From NCBI GenBank assembly GCA_017421975.1, contig JAFOHE010000245.1:1-32869 (forward strand): a stretch of DNA of 32,869 nt, read 5' to 3'. Below the pieces are notes generated by a model. The model worked only from the letters and a program-made list of their open reading frames with translations. It was not told where the DNA came from and made no database searches. Origin of the DNA: Pseudomonadota bacterium (GTDB lineage: Bacteria; Myxococcota_A; Bradymonadia; UBA4248). The position numbers and the translations under genes are program-made. Positions 3,813-32,676 of the stretch are shown piece by piece. Every line of letters starts with the position of its first letter. Within the stretch, counting starts at the first letter, position 1.

Positions 3813-4970
3813 TTATTTTAGATATGTTTTGAAAAACGCATCAAGTTTATCAAAAGGAATTTTTTCCATATTATCGTAGAGATCGACGTGTGAAGCACCT
3901 GGAATAATCATAATTTCCTTATTGCCGACAGTGGCGTTTTCATTTTCAACGTGTTTTCCAGTCATTTTTTCGAAAGCGCCTTCGCTAAAGTATCGGCTGT
4001 GCGCGGCTTCACCATGTATGATGAGCACGGGATTGACGATTTCGTTAATATAATACAGAAAACGCGCATTTAAGAATGAAATTGCGGAAGTTTTGTTCCA
4101 TCCATCATTGGAATTGAGAGAACGTTTGTGATAGCCGCGATCGGTTTTGTAATAGTCAAAATAATCTTTGACGAACTGCGGTTCATCGCCATTGAGTTTT
4201 GGAATGACGCCGCCTGCGCGTTCTGCGGAGCCAGATTTGTAGTCTATGGTGCGTTGTTCACTGAGCGCTTTGCGTTTGGCGTTTCGAGCATCAGCACTAT
4301 CTTCCGAATCAAAGTAGCCATTGCCGTTGACCCGCGTCATATCGTACATCGTCGAAGCGACCGTGGCTTTAATGCGCGTATCAGCAGCAGCGGCGTTGAG
4401 TGCAATGCCACCCCATCCGCAAATACCCAAAATACCGATGGCATCGGGATTGACGCGTTCGTGAGTGGCGAGGAAGTCTACGGCTGCGCCGAAGTCCTCG
4501 GTATTGATGTCCGGGGAGGCCACGTAACGCGGTTCGCCGCTACTCTCACCTGTGTAGGAGGGATCGAAGGCAATCGCCAAAAAGCCACGTTCTGCGAGGG
4601 TTTGAGCGTATAATCCGGAAGATTGTTCTTTGACTGCGCCAAAGGGCCCACTTATGGCAATGGCAGGTAGCTTTTGGCCTGCACTGTCTTTGGGAATGTA
4701 CATGTCAGCCGCAAGCGTCATGCCGAAGCGGGTTTTGAAAGTGACTTTTTGGTGATCGACTTTATCGCTCTGTTTGAAGACTTTATCCCAATGTTGTTCG
4801 AGTGTCATGACTTGTGCTCCTGTGTGGTTGTTTGAGGGTGTTTCGGCGTTAGCCGTGCTGGTTTGTGGGGCGGGGGATGGACAAGGGCAGTCGGTTTCGA
4901 CTGTGGGGGGATTGCTGTTACAGGCTGTGAGAGATAATGCGAAAAGTGCCGTCAGTATGACCTTTTTCAT
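3813..4970 (-). CDS. Alpha/beta-hydrolase lipoprotein
   Basis: From the ATG at 4970 the product is 385 aa. It begins MKKVILTALFALSLTACNSN with a clear lipobox (LTAC), followed by a Pro/Ser/Asn/Thr-rich linker. The body is an alpha/beta hydrolase of the dienelactone-hydrolase/YcjY type. The nucleophile elbow GICGWGG carries Cys where many hydrolases have Ser, which is normal for dienelactone hydrolase relatives. The catalytic His is in GASHVDLYD near the C-terminus. I chose 4970 over an in-frame ATG at 5042 because the signal peptide starts there and TGAGG sits 6-7 nt upstream. The gene is divergent from lysR, which suggests direct regulation. An 11-base G/C homopolymer lies 31-41 bp upstream of the start. 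The substrate cannot be told. Confidence 0.88.
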   Translation of the reverse strand: MKKVILTALFALSLTACNSNPPTVETDCPCPSPAPQTSTANAETPSNNHTGAQVMTLEQHWDKVFKQSDKVDHQKVTFKTRFGMTLAADMYIPKDSAGQKLPAIAISGPFGAVKEQSSGLYAQTLAERGFLAIAFDPSYTGESSGEPRYVASPDINTEDFGAAVDFLATHERVNPDAIGILGICGWGGIALNAAAADTRIKATVASTMYDMTRVNGNGYFDSEDSADARNAKRKALSEQRTIDYKSGSAERAGGVIPKLNGDEPQFVKDYFDYYKTDRGYHKRSLNSNDGWNKTSAISFLNARFLYYINEIVNPVLIIHGEAAHSRYFSEGAFEKMTGKHVENENATVGNKEIMIIPGASHVDLYDNMEKIPFDKLDAFFKTYLK

Positions 4971-5000
4971 GATGAACCTCAATGCAGGCGTGTTTATGTC

Positions 5001-5011
5001 GGGGGGGGGGG
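5001..5011. repeat. Homopolymer tract of 11 G (C on the minus strand)
   Basis: Eleven consecutive G residues on the plus strand lie between the candidate hydrolase promoter (5055-5083) and the hydrolase start codon (4970), so in the leader of that gene. Tracts this long are prone to slipped-strand length change. An in-frame upstream ATG at 5042 reads through the tract, so length changes would shift that extended frame. Confidence 0.9.
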
Positions 5012-5054
5012 TGGAATTGTGTTGACATGTCACATCCATCATCCGTTTTTATCT

Positions 5055-5083
5055 TTTATAGGCATTTTGTGTGAAATATCCAA
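5055..5083 (-). promoter_or_regulatory. Candidate sigma-70-like promoter for the hydrolase gene
   Basis: On the minus strand, TTGGAT (5083-5078) is followed after exactly 17 nt by TATAAA (5060-5055). The -10 is good and the -35 is weak. The predicted transcript would have a leader of roughly 75-80 nt containing the C tract. The same 173-bp gap must also hold the lysR promoter and any LysR binding sites, which I could not assign with confidence. Confidence 0.4.
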
Positions 5084-5143
5084 TACTTATATTTTATTTC
5101 ATGTTATTCTATTTTGGCATAACTGAGCGAATGGGAGGTCGTC

Positions 5144-6019
5144 ATGGAAATCGCAGTTTTGAGAAATTTCATTATGGTAGCGCGTCTTGGCAATGTGACG
5201 CGGGCAGCGGAACGGTTACATATCTCGCAACCCGCATTGTCGAAGCAGCTGAAGGCGCTTGAGGTCGAACTCGACAGAAAGTTGTTCCGGCGCGGCAGCG
5301 CATGCATGCATCTGACGGAGGAAGGGATGCTTTTACTTCAAAGGGCGGAAGATATCGTCGCCATGGTTGACAAGACGGTGATGGATTTCAAATCCCTGGA
5401 TGATGTTATGGGTGGGGACATTTATATTGGCTGTGCTGAATCGCATTTGATTCGATATATTGCCCAGGCTGTAAAATCCTTTCAGTCCAAGTGTCCGCGC
5501 GTTCGGTATCATTTGATGAGTGGAAACACCGAACAGGTGGCAGAGCGTCTGAGTCGTGGTCAACTGGATTTTGCTTTAATATGTGAACCGCCGGATTTGT
5601 TGAAATACAATTATATCGAAATTGATGAACCCGATGTATGGGGCGTAGTTATGCGCAAAGACAGCCCTTTGTCGCAGAAAAAAACGATTCAATATACGGA
5701 TTTGCTCGGTCTTCCGCTGATATGTTCCATACAGGCGATTCGAACGGATTTCCCACGGTGGTGTGGTGATGGCATTGAGAAATTGAATATTTTTACGACA
5801 GTCAATCTTTTTTATAATGGGAGTGTATTTGTTAAAGAAGGATTAGGATATATGTTAATATTTGATAAATTGGCAGATACGGGTGTTGATAGTACGTTAT
5901 GTTTTCGCCCGCTTGAACCGAAGCTTGAAACGCAAATGTATATGATATGGATGAAGCATCAACAGTTTACGCCCGTATCTGGATTATTTATTGAGGAGTT
6001 GAGAAGGACATTAAAATGA
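5144..6019 (+). CDS. LysR-family transcriptional regulator
   Basis: A 291-aa protein, the normal length for the family. It starts with a winged helix-turn-helix: LRNFIMVARLGNVTRAAERL, then HISQPALSKQLKALEVELDRKLFRR (residues about 6-51) with the canonical SQPALSKQ recognition helix. The rest matches the LysR substrate-binding domain. GGAGG precedes ATG 5144 by about 6 nt. It is transcribed divergently from the alpha/beta-hydrolase lipoprotein, the classic arrangement in which a LysR protein controls its neighbour; the effector is unknown. Its stop is only 4 bp from the stop of the convergent tsaE gene, with no terminator between them. Confidence 0.93.
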   Translation: MEIAVLRNFIMVARLGNVTRAAERLHISQPALSKQLKALEVELDRKLFRRGSACMHLTEEGMLLLQRAEDIVAMVDKTVMDFKSLDDVMGGDIYIGCAESHLIRYIAQAVKSFQSKCPRVRYHLMSGNTEQVAERLSRGQLDFALICEPPDLLKYNYIEIDEPDVWGVVMRKDSPLSQKKTIQYTDLLGLPLICSIQAIRTDFPRWCGDGIEKLNIFTTVNLFYNGSVFVKEGLGYMLIFDKLADTGVDSTLCFRPLEPKLETQMYMIWMKHQQFTPVSGLFIEELRRTLK

Positions 6020-29270: not shown

Positions 29271-29340
29271 ACCTTGAAATGATCATTTGAAAAGATATAA
29301 TGTCGTCAACGTGTTTCGTAGGTTGCAGGGGGAGGCAGCG

Positions 29341-30882
29341 TTGGAAGCAAAACAGAGGCGGCAAACAAAGAATAAGGCTCTCCAGGAGAGGCCAAAGCCA
29401 AACGGTTTTGCGGATTATCCTGCGCTGGCGGGCAAATATACGTTGCTTGAAAAAATTGGGCATGGGGCGCAGGCATCCGTTTTTAAAGCCAGAGACGCCA
29501 ATGGACAAGTTGTAGCCATTAAGATCTTTGATCTTCGTGAAGTAGCGGATTGGAAGGCTGTTGAACTCTGGAAACGCGAGGTTGATGTCCTCAAATCGCT
29601 CCATATCAAGGGTATACCAAAATATATGGATTATATTGAAGATATGCCCCATGCTTATCTGGTGGAATCTTTTATTGAGGCAAAATCCCTCGATACATGG
29701 ATGAACGATGGGTTTAGGTTCACGCAGGCACAAATTGGTTCGATCCTCCGTAAGACGCTTCACATCCTTGATTTGCTTCATCAGCAGATACCACCCATTA
29801 TTCATCGCGATATTAAACCTGGCAATATCCTCGTCGATATTGATGGTGACAAGGTGAAAGTGTGGGTCGTCGATATGGGGGCCGTAACTTCTCTGCGGCA
29901 TAAGAGCCATGCCAGTACGGTAGCAGGGACAGTTGGTTATGCGCCTCCGGAGCAATTTTTGGGGCAGGCGACGCCCGCTTCCGATATTTATGCGCTCGGC
30001 ATGACGATCGTTCACCTGATTACGGGCGTCAAACCTTGGAACATGGATGTCCATGGCCTCGAAATTCAATATGAAAAATATCTTCCGTCTTGGGTGCCCA
30101 CAGGCTTTCGAAAGCTCCTCTTCGATATGCTTCGCCCCGATCCCAATGCGCGTATTCAGAGCGCAAGCGCTGTCATTGAACGGCTAAAAGTACTCAAAAA
30201 AAAAGCTAAAAATGAAGCCCGATTTGCATCCCAAAGGGCTTCGAGCTTGCCATCGTTGCCATCGTTGCCCCTTGTGCCTGTTGCCTGCGGCACAACGGCA
30301 AAAGGAGTGCGTCCCCCTGCGTTGCCATATTCACCTGAGTTTTTCTCTGTACTCAAAGATTATTCACGCGAAGATCAAATTTATATTATCCAAAGTCTTC
30401 ATACTTTAAGCAATAAACCCGATACCGCCATTGTTAATGCCCTTGGCATTGCCATGCGTCAGATTGGTAATAAAAGCAATATAGAGCTCTTGATTGCACG
30501 CACGTTGAATATCTTAACGTATCCCGACCAAATCGATAACTACCGTGAAGGCAGTGCGCATGAAATGAAGATTAAAACGGAAGATGGCCCTGATGGTACC
30601 GTGATTTTGGCCATGATTGTCAGCATAATCGCTGCTTTTGGTGGCATTGCCATGGTCATCTGTGATCCCAACTTTACGTTGGTGATGGCAATGACGTACA
30701 TCTTGGGAGGAAGCTTTTGGATTGGGGTCGCTGGCTACATGGCGAAGGGGTGCGCAGTTACGGTCGCCATCTTGATAATCATCATGTTATGTTCAGAATT
30801 TACACTTGCCGGGTGGGGCATCCTGCTTACCATTGGCGGTATTGCGAGCTTGATTGCACTGGCGACGCGGGATAAAGATTGA
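29341..30882 (+). CDS. Membrane-anchored Ser/Thr protein kinase (first of a tandem pair)
   Basis: 513 aa from a TTG start at 29341, chosen because GGGGGAGG ends 5 nt upstream and the resulting N-terminus (~28 residues before ALAGKYTLLEK) matches the paralogue next door; the upstream TTG at 29287 has no ribosome site. The kinase domain has G-loop IGHGAQASVF, Lys61 (VAIKIF), Glu80, catalytic Asp157 in HRDIKPGN, metal-binding Asp178 in DMG (in place of DFG) and YAPPEQ. A Ser/Pro/Leu linker follows, then a ~60-residue domain (332-392) also found in the next gene, then about four membrane helices to the end. The kinase faces the cytoplasm. Substrates unknown. Confidence 0.9.
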   Translation: MEAKQRRQTKNKALQERPKPNGFADYPALAGKYTLLEKIGHGAQASVFKARDANGQVVAIKIFDLREVADWKAVELWKREVDVLKSLHIKGIPKYMDYIEDMPHAYLVESFIEAKSLDTWMNDGFRFTQAQIGSILRKTLHILDLLHQQIPPIIHRDIKPGNILVDIDGDKVKVWVVDMGAVTSLRHKSHASTVAGTVGYAPPEQFLGQATPASDIYALGMTIVHLITGVKPWNMDVHGLEIQYEKYLPSWVPTGFRKLLFDMLRPDPNARIQSASAVIERLKVLKKKAKNEARFASQRASSLPSLPSLPLVPVACGTTAKGVRPPALPYSPEFFSVLKDYSREDQIYIIQSLHTLSNKPDTAIVNALGIAMRQIGNKSNIELLIARTLNILTYPDQIDNYREGSAHEMKIKTEDGPDGTVILAMIVSIIAAFGGIAMVICDPNFTLVMAMTYILGGSFWIGVAGYMAKGCAVTVAILIIIMLCSEFTLAGWGILLTIGGIASLIALATRDKD

Positions 30883-30900
30883 TCGTAAACAGGGGGAAAC

Positions 30901-32676
30901 ATGGATACGAGTGGTAGAAAGAGCGTAGATGAGCAACGCACGGCATCTGTGGATCAACGTTTGATGTCTGTGCATCCAGCATTGGCTGGCAAATACACGA
31001 TTCTTGAAAAACTCGGACGTGGTGCGCAAGCCTCTGTTTTTAAGGCAAAATCGGTCGATGGACAGATCGTCGCCATCAAGGTCTTTGATTTCCGCGATAT
31101 AGAAGATGTGAAATCCGTGGAGCTCCTGGAACGTGAAGTCGAGGTGCTTAGAAACCTCAAAATTGATGGTATACCAAAATATATTGATTATATTGAAGCC
31201 ATACCGAATATCTATCTTGTGGAATCGTTTATTGAAGCCAAATCCCTCGAACAATGGTTAAAAGAAGGTATTCATCCGACAACAGAGCAGGTGTGTGAAA
31301 TTTTGTCACAGGCATTGACGATTCTCGAGAAGCTTCACCAGCAATTACCGCCTGTCATTCATCGTGATATTAAGCCTGGAAACGTTTTGGTGGATATGGC
31401 GGGTGACACTGTGAAAGTGTGGATTGTTGATCTGGGTTCAGTGACGTCCCTTCGCCGTAAGAGCCGTGCCAGTACGGTCGCGGGGACAATTGGCTATGCT
31501 GCGCCGGAACAGTTTTTGGGCAAGGCGACGCCCGCATCCGATATTTATGGTTTGGGCATGACGTTGGTACACCTGGTATCTGGCGTCGAGCCGTGGAATA
31601 TGGATGTCGATGGGTTGGAAATCCAATATGAAAAGTATTTGCCAGAGAACTTGCCCGATTATCTCAAAATGCTTTTATCTGAAATGTTAAAATCGGATCC
31701 AAAGACGCGCATTTCTGATGCTAAATCCGTTAAAAAACGTCTGAAGAAACTCAAAAAACAATCAAAAACATACGATGTCAATGCCTCGTCTTATACATCA
31801 TCCAACGAGCATCAAATAGATGATGAATTTGATACAAATACCTTTTGGATGTTGGACCAATTTAGTTTAGATGAACAGAAATTTATTGTAAGAGAAATTA
31901 AAACAGTTACCAAAAAATCGAAGTATGAAATTGCAGAAGGAATTCGAAAAGTTCAGCGCACCTATAATGATATAAGCGGAAAGTTTGAATTAATTAGTAA
32001 GACCATGGATGTGTTGTTAAATACAAAACTAGATGAGAAATCTTCAAAGAAGGATTCTGTACCACAAAAGAAAACGGATGACCAATTATTCAGTTTGAAT
32101 ACTTTTTGGATGCTGGATAAATATACATTAGATGATAAAATATTTATTGTCAATGAACTTAGGGAAAGGACAAAAAAGAGCAATGCTGAAATAGCGGAAG
32201 CCATCCAAAAAGTACAGCAAAAGAAAAAAGATTTTGGCTTGAAATATTATTTGATTGAACAAGTTGAAGAAGAATTAAAGCCTGGGTCTAAACAAACAAA
32301 CATACCAGTGACGACGCCAAAATCGACGTATGATTCGTGGACGCCAAAATCGACGTATGAAACAACGACATCAACATCGTTGGAAGAAACAAAAAATTAT
32401 AATCGCGGTTTGAAACATAATTTTATTTTTTGGGATGATACGAAAACTGCCATCTGCATTGGTGGCGGTTTTTTTGCTTTACCCATATTGGCAGTTTTGG
32501 GCTATTTGTCGTACGTCAATCTTGGCCTGGCCTGGACTGTGATCATAGGCGGTGTCACAGGCAGACAGCTCAGAAGCATGACTGCGACCAACAAAAGGGA
32601 CAATGCGCGTTTCATAAGCTTCATTTGGTTGTTCTCCTTTTCTAAAAGTTTCCAACTGCCCAAACGGGCAGAATAA
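30901..32676 (+). CDS. Membrane-anchored Ser/Thr protein kinase (second of a tandem pair)
   Basis: 591 aa; GGGGG precedes ATG 30901, 18 bp after the first kinase. The kinase domain is closely similar to its neighbour: LGRGAQASVF, Lys60, Glu79, HRDIKPGN (Asp156), DLG (Asp177) in place of DFG, and YAAPEQ. A basic linker leads to two copies of a ~60-residue domain (about 312-374 and 399-459) beginning NTFWMLD, then a Thr/Ser-rich stretch with TPKSTY repeated. One or two membrane segments follow (about 497-535) and a short basic tail. The region after the kinase domain is more AT- and Lys-rich than the kinase part. Tandem duplication of one ancestral gene followed by divergence of the tail explains the pair. 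Confidence 0.9.
   Translation: MDTSGRKSVDEQRTASVDQRLMSVHPALAGKYTILEKLGRGAQASVFKAKSVDGQIVAIKVFDFRDIEDVKSVELLEREVEVLRNLKIDGIPKYIDYIEAIPNIYLVESFIEAKSLEQWLKEGIHPTTEQVCEILSQALTILEKLHQQLPPVIHRDIKPGNVLVDMAGDTVKVWIVDLGSVTSLRRKSRASTVAGTIGYAAPEQFLGKATPASDIYGLGMTLVHLVSGVEPWNMDVDGLEIQYEKYLPENLPDYLKMLLSEMLKSDPKTRISDAKSVKKRLKKLKKQSKTYDVNASSYTSSNEHQIDDEFDTNTFWMLDQFSLDEQKFIVREIKTVTKKSKYEIAEGIRKVQRTYNDISGKFELISKTMDVLLNTKLDEKSSKKDSVPQKKTDDQLFSLNTFWMLDKYTLDDKIFIVNELRERTKKSNAEIAEAIQKVQQKKKDFGLKYYLIEQVEEELKPGSKQTNIPVTTPKSTYDSWTPKSTYETTTSTSLEETKNYNRGLKHNFIFWDDTKTAICIGGGFFALPILAVLGYLSYVNLGLAWTVIIGGVTGRQLRSMTATNKRDNARFISFIWLFSFSKSFQLPKRAE
32656..32671 (+). other. Hairpin at the end of the second kinase gene
   Basis: CTGCCC-AAAC-GGGCAG forms a perfect 6-bp stem inside the last codons of the gene, just before the TAA at 32674-32676. 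No T run follows, so it is not a standard terminator. Confidence 0.4.

Follow-up and report, generated by a model that had tools for sequence, protein, structure and literature searches.

A domain of ~62 residues, located between the kinase domain and the membrane segments of two tandem Ser/Thr kinases (K1 and K2), is a real, unnamed family on a known kinase type, and comparisons of profiles and predicted folds indicate that it is very probably homologous to a segment of phage tail tape-measure proteins (TMPs). Both kinase genes lie in the window, the 32,869-nucleotide stretch of DNA analyzed here, which makes up an entire contig (C157) in a draft genome of 3.6 Mb (G000). The source bacterium is uncultured and probably from ruminant gut. 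To our knowledge, most bacterial Ser/Thr kinases have undefined input domains, and the host contacts of TMPs are poorly understood. Here, a kinase input domain can be defined, folded, and counted in copies, and it is tied to a phage protein.

Tandem kinases and their domain copies

K1 (29341..30882, forward strand) and K2 (30901..32676, forward strand; 591 aa) are tandem paralogues with 53% identity over 367 aa, each anchored in the membrane. The K1 frame is open from 29287, and the open reading frame at 29287-30882 comprises 531 aa counted from the first TTG. We favor the TTG at 29341 as the more likely start, because GGGGGAGG precedes it; this choice also reproduces the K1 numbering (332-392) of the original prediction. 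Protein kinase domains (PF00069) occupy 29437..30171 in K1 (E 4.3e-41; motifs VAIK, HRDIKPGN, DMG, PPE, and TVAGTVGY) and 30994..31728 in K2 (E 7.2e-43; motifs VAIK, HRDIKPGN, DLG, and APE), both on the forward strand. These are the hallmarks of eukaryotic-like Ser/Thr kinases (PF00069, VAIK lysine, HRD, DxG, and an APE-like motif), with the DFG position reading DMG in K1 and DLG in K2. As the motifs are intact, both proteins are probably catalytically active. Hydropathy places a C-terminal hydrophobic (transmembrane) region at 30583..30873 in K1 and a C-terminal segment of the same kind at 32440..32550 in K2 (both forward strand). The two kinases are not of the PknB/PASTA type (NF033483), scoring 124 and 116 bits against a cutoff of 450, with the match made by the kinase domain alone. 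Nor are they TMPs as whole proteins, since they lack TMP regions and the TMPs are separate genes. Near the contig start, at 1120-1635, there is an IS200-like transposase gene (PF01797).

The domain occurs once in K1 (30331..30525, aa 349-413) and twice in K2, as copy K2a (31831..32025, aa 311-375) and copy K2b (32092..32286, aa 398-462), all on the forward strand. This is the arrangement that the original prediction had proposed, and local alignments bear it out, with scores of 60 for K1/K2a (z 9.6), 51 for K1/K2b (z 7.2), and 148 for K2a/K2b (z 24); for each pair, none of 5,000 shuffles scored as high. The features said to be shared by the copies (an F-x-x-L start, an acidic pair, I-I or I-V, and an L-rich last helix) are indeed present, and the limits of PF00069 together with hydropathy put the copies between kinase and membrane anchor, as claimed. 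Searches of Pfam, NCBIfam, and PHROG returned no family covering the K1 and K2 tails, in agreement with the view that the domain is not a named one, and the tails of their relatives likewise matched no named domain. Because K1 and K2 are tandem paralogues, the likeness between K1 and K2a derives partly from common descent of the whole proteins; that K2 has a second copy, and that other genomes have copies as well, marks the domain as a separate unit. K2a and K2b share 57% nucleotide identity, and a dN of 0.48 against a saturated dS of 3.4 points to an old duplication under purifying selection. The K2 linker between copy b and the membrane segment also contains a Ser/Thr-rich, TPKSTY-type repeat (32317-32361), possibly a region of autophosphorylation.

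The window genome has about 40 Ser/Thr kinase matches, yet searching it with a profile of K1, K2a, and K2b recovers these three copies alone. In the closest paralogue (L003, kinase domain 55% identical), the membrane segment directly follows the kinase, without the domain. A scan of other genomes, which had been proposed as a check, found kinases with this tail in two more of the eight genomes that represent this bacterial family. In G006, one kinase (L025) has four copies. In G003, a kinase gene within which the contig begins (L053) has five, and another contig ends within the N-terminal half of a similar kinase (L027). The latter shares an Mpl-like neighbor with the G006 kinase, and the two G003 pieces are thus probably one gene. 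The number of copies per kinase is therefore 1, 2, 4, and 5 (K1, K2, G006, and G003). By tree, copies 1 and 3 of G006 are of type A and copies 2 and 4 of type B, while the G003 array reads A-A-B-A-B. A joint profile of kinase and TMP copies matched in 3 of 379 genomes of the phylum (G000, G003, and G006), all of one bacterial family, and within these 379 genomes the domain is confined to two kinds of protein, kinases and TMPs. No domain-bearing kinases were found in IMG/VR, GTDB contigs, or plasmids. The sample comprises 12 kinase copies and 7 distinct TMP copies, all from MAGs.

Relationship to phage tape-measure proteins

Profile A3, built from seven kinase copies and searched against 57 genomes of the class, matched only three proteins outside kinases (E 1.8e-6 to 1.5e-5 per genome). 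All three, encoded at G000:C32, G006:C78, and G006:C189, are phage tail TMPs. They were identified by C termini like phrog_167 and phrog_27648, by a weak resemblance to the protein annotated as TMP in phage phiCD27, and by the order of the tail module, which runs from sheath (phrog_23, 2.1e-34) through tail assembly chaperone (phrog_3140) and TMP to a LysM-type/baseplate hub. In the opposite direction, a profile of these three TMPs only (A4) was searched against 58 genomes, where its sole matches apart from TMPs were kinase tails, in G006 (5.2e-7) and in G003 (2.6e-4 and 1.1e-3). Profile-profile comparison of kinase and TMP copies gave a probability of 97.6 and an E of 3.6e-12. The score was 54.7, against maxima of 16.1 for 150 column permutations and 18.8 for 150 decoys that preserved the hydrophobic pattern, and against 11.6 for a reversed-profile control.

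A kinase-only HMM scored six of the seven TMPs at 27-40 bits, where the shuffle maximum was 12. The window copies reach just 3-8 bits with a TMP-only HMM, close to the shuffle maximum, so that their link to the TMPs goes via the G003 and G006 kinase copies and the joint profile. Weak scores were also seen for L081, the TMP that has diverged furthest, and for part of the G003 copies. The TMP copies keep the motif TGxDYxxIVxAI, whereas the kinase copies have diverged, with identities down to about 20%. In a tree of the 19 short copies, the TMP copies form one group with the kinase copies across the branch (support 85/79), a split that does not point to recent or repeated exchange. Ten forks of this tree are open, and it gives no direction of transfer.

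Predicted structures agree with the profile matches. AlphaFold2 modeled the K1 copy, with the 12 kinase copies only as input, at a pLDDT of 93.2 with helices at 3-8, 14-28, 32-46, and 52-64. A separate run with six TMP copies only gave a pLDDT of 89.8 and helices at 2-5, 14-28, 32-46, and 52-64 for a TMP copy; the agreement is one of helix order and boundaries rather than of superposed coordinates. Structure prediction, another of the checks originally proposed, thus yielded a confident four-helix fold, and the strong match to a known family that would have spoken against a new domain did not appear. Foldseek searches of PDB and BFVD found no significant relative (E <= 0.001). The top 50 fold matches of the TMP model do include several tape-measure or minor tail proteins, none of them significant.

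The contractile phages of these hosts have one domain copy per TMP, and about 10 phage contigs of 8-36 kb in IMG/VR carry the same TMP segment. We found no kinase genes on the TMP-bearing phage contigs and no cultured phage with the domain. The TMP contigs of G006 match the MAG RGIG4413, from roe deer omasum. In two TMPs (TMP75 and TMP78), the domain follows a Gly/Ala-rich hydrophobic segment, and by hydropathy the kinase copies too adjoin hydrophobic segments. PhageMin_Tail (PF10145), the TP901-type TMP core, is a helical TMP region; it was considered as a parent family and rejected, being undetected in all eight family genomes and in the TMPs studied.

Other tail genes were also observed. 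At the G000:C32 locus (L094), the full tail-sheath gene (4057-5286) is preceded by a partial second copy (1820-2338), a sign of possible decay or rearrangement of this prophage, or of misassembly. In seven of the eight family genomes, two additional tail-sheath genes are conserved (phrog_23, E about 1e-80 and 1e-55). Such genes lie at G000:C138:12618-13763, G000:C257:16206-17921, G006:C97, and elsewhere, with one shared contig in G006. They resemble a resident system for contractile injection, distinct from the phage that carries the TMP.

A proposed docking module and rival explanations

The explanation that we prefer, at about an even chance, is that the domain docks proteins at the membrane, either to a host partner common to kinase and TMP or by self-association. 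We infer a juxtamembrane module for protein docking or sensing, as well as the docking role, the common partner, and any direction of transfer. The kinase copies would be cytosolic, with an apparently active kinase domain on one side and the membrane anchor on the other, and arrays of one to five such copies would govern partner binding or clustering and, through it, the control of kinase activity or the recruitment of substrates. Through its single copy, a phage TMP would contact this host partner while the tail is assembled or DNA enters the cell. The partner common to kinase and TMP may be an envelope component; alternatively, the TMP itself may be what the kinase binds. Counted against this explanation is that the conserved positions are mainly those of the hydrophobic core. 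According to work cited in PMC13277306, ejected TMPs are located in the cell membrane while DNA is being transferred, and inner-membrane proteins such as ManYZ serve the DNA entry of some phages (PMC6832061). We take these findings, together with those on Tab (below), as leads for domain function. The presence of the domain in both kinases and TMPs suggests that bacterial signaling and phage entry or assembly share a small docking module. If a common partner exists, one bait would yield both the input of the kinase and a phage entry or assembly factor.

The kinases might instead be phage sensors, whose TMP-like arrays bind incoming or new TMP (or its chaperone), through partner mimicry or like with like, then switch on the kinase and stop the infection. 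We regard this as unlikely. It would fit the restriction of the domain to kinases and TMPs, and there is precedent both for recognition of a TMP, by Tab (PMC10884400), and for a Ser/Thr kinase, Stk2, that triggers abortive infection (PMC9952470). A domain-bearing TMP occurs along with the kinase in two of the three domain-kinase genomes (G000 and G006) and in none of the other five. However, these are eight incomplete genomes, in one of which (G004) the phage TMP gene is cut by the contig end; in G003, which has the kinase, no TMP is seen on the contig with the phage sheath. The co-occurrence is suggestive only. The kinase domains also match the PADLOC models PD-T4-6 and mad6, but these matches are generic, involve the kinase domain only, and are equaled or exceeded by paralogues without the domain. 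We therefore rejected a defense assignment on this basis. With neither a specific match nor a defense-island context, K1 and K2 do not qualify as defense kinases of the PD-T4-6, MAD6, or Stk2-like kind; of the window genes scanned, all are either housekeeping genes or unassigned, and neither kinase lies in a recognized defense island. That the expandable arrays are a receptor for phage tail machinery, with TMP detection triggering a kinase response, seems rather improbable; if true, a phage entry or assembly component and a host sensor would be built from one module. Mutual binding of kinase and TMP, if true, would be a new mode of phage sensing.

Exaptation without a functional link is a doubtful but somewhat better candidate. 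Recombination between prophage and chromosome would have moved a generic four-helix spacer or oligomerization unit whose jobs are now unrelated, for example, self-association in the kinases. The separation of TMP from kinase copies in the tree is consistent with this, as are the differing sequence constraints on the two sets, and TMP modules are reported to be reused in effectors of host contractile systems (PMC13277306). A generic module, however, would be expected in other host proteins, and none was seen in the 379 genomes. We consider it very improbable that amphipathic helices of kinase and TMP are merely alike by chance. The similarity is short and driven by the hydrophobic core, and the TMP profile also matches an unrelated enzyme, HMG-CoA lyase (2ftp, E 0.008), indicating that a helix-TG-x-D-helix motif is able to arise by chance. 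Yet the kinase match is far stronger, and the reciprocal searches, the pattern-preserving decoys, the common helix boundaries, and the restriction to one bacterial family leave chance convergence strongly disfavored. The candidate relatives among solved structures (transducin alpha, 0.056; TMP 9sze, 0.23; 2ftp, 0.008) were weak and inconsistent, and we judged them to be at chance level. A shared partner or self-association is thus preferred over both exaptation and direct sensing of the TMP.

Known systems and other kinase tails

Like kinases of the PknB/PASTA type, AfsK, Stk2, and PD-T4-6, K1 and K2 have a PF00069 domain, its motifs intact, followed by a membrane anchor. Unlike them, their tails contain neither PASTA nor any named domain, but four-helix repeats before the membrane segments. 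The contractile-phage TMPs share the domain by profile and predicted fold; they differ in having a long coiled N terminus and a C terminus reading GPE.IPLDYSR or GPEAIIPL, both absent from the kinases, and in having one copy where the kinases have one to five. The contractile-injection effectors Tme and Sle1 are likewise cases of TMP modules outside phage (PMC13277306), but those proteins are injected cargo, whereas K1 and K2 carry the module as membrane kinases that stay in the cell. Tab, the tail assembly blocker of phage JBD26, is a host-side (prophage) factor that recognizes a TMP, and its defense has been linked to the TMP C-terminal region (PMC10884400). The likeness lies in the idea of TMP recognition, with no homology claimed.

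Other tails were also seen among related kinases. Three members of the same kinase clade in G005 and G001 (L028, L029, and L037) have long Sel1-like repeat tails, which suggests that this kinase family exchanges C-terminal modules freely. Seven paralogues in the window genome (L005, L006, L007, and L009-L012) share a different C-terminal region, GRK[ST]xAT(V/I)...FNPPDD...(L/I)H(E/Q)...GD.(I/L)(S/P)ILY. In L005, Pfam matches nothing but the kinase domain, so the shared tail may be a second unnamed domain.
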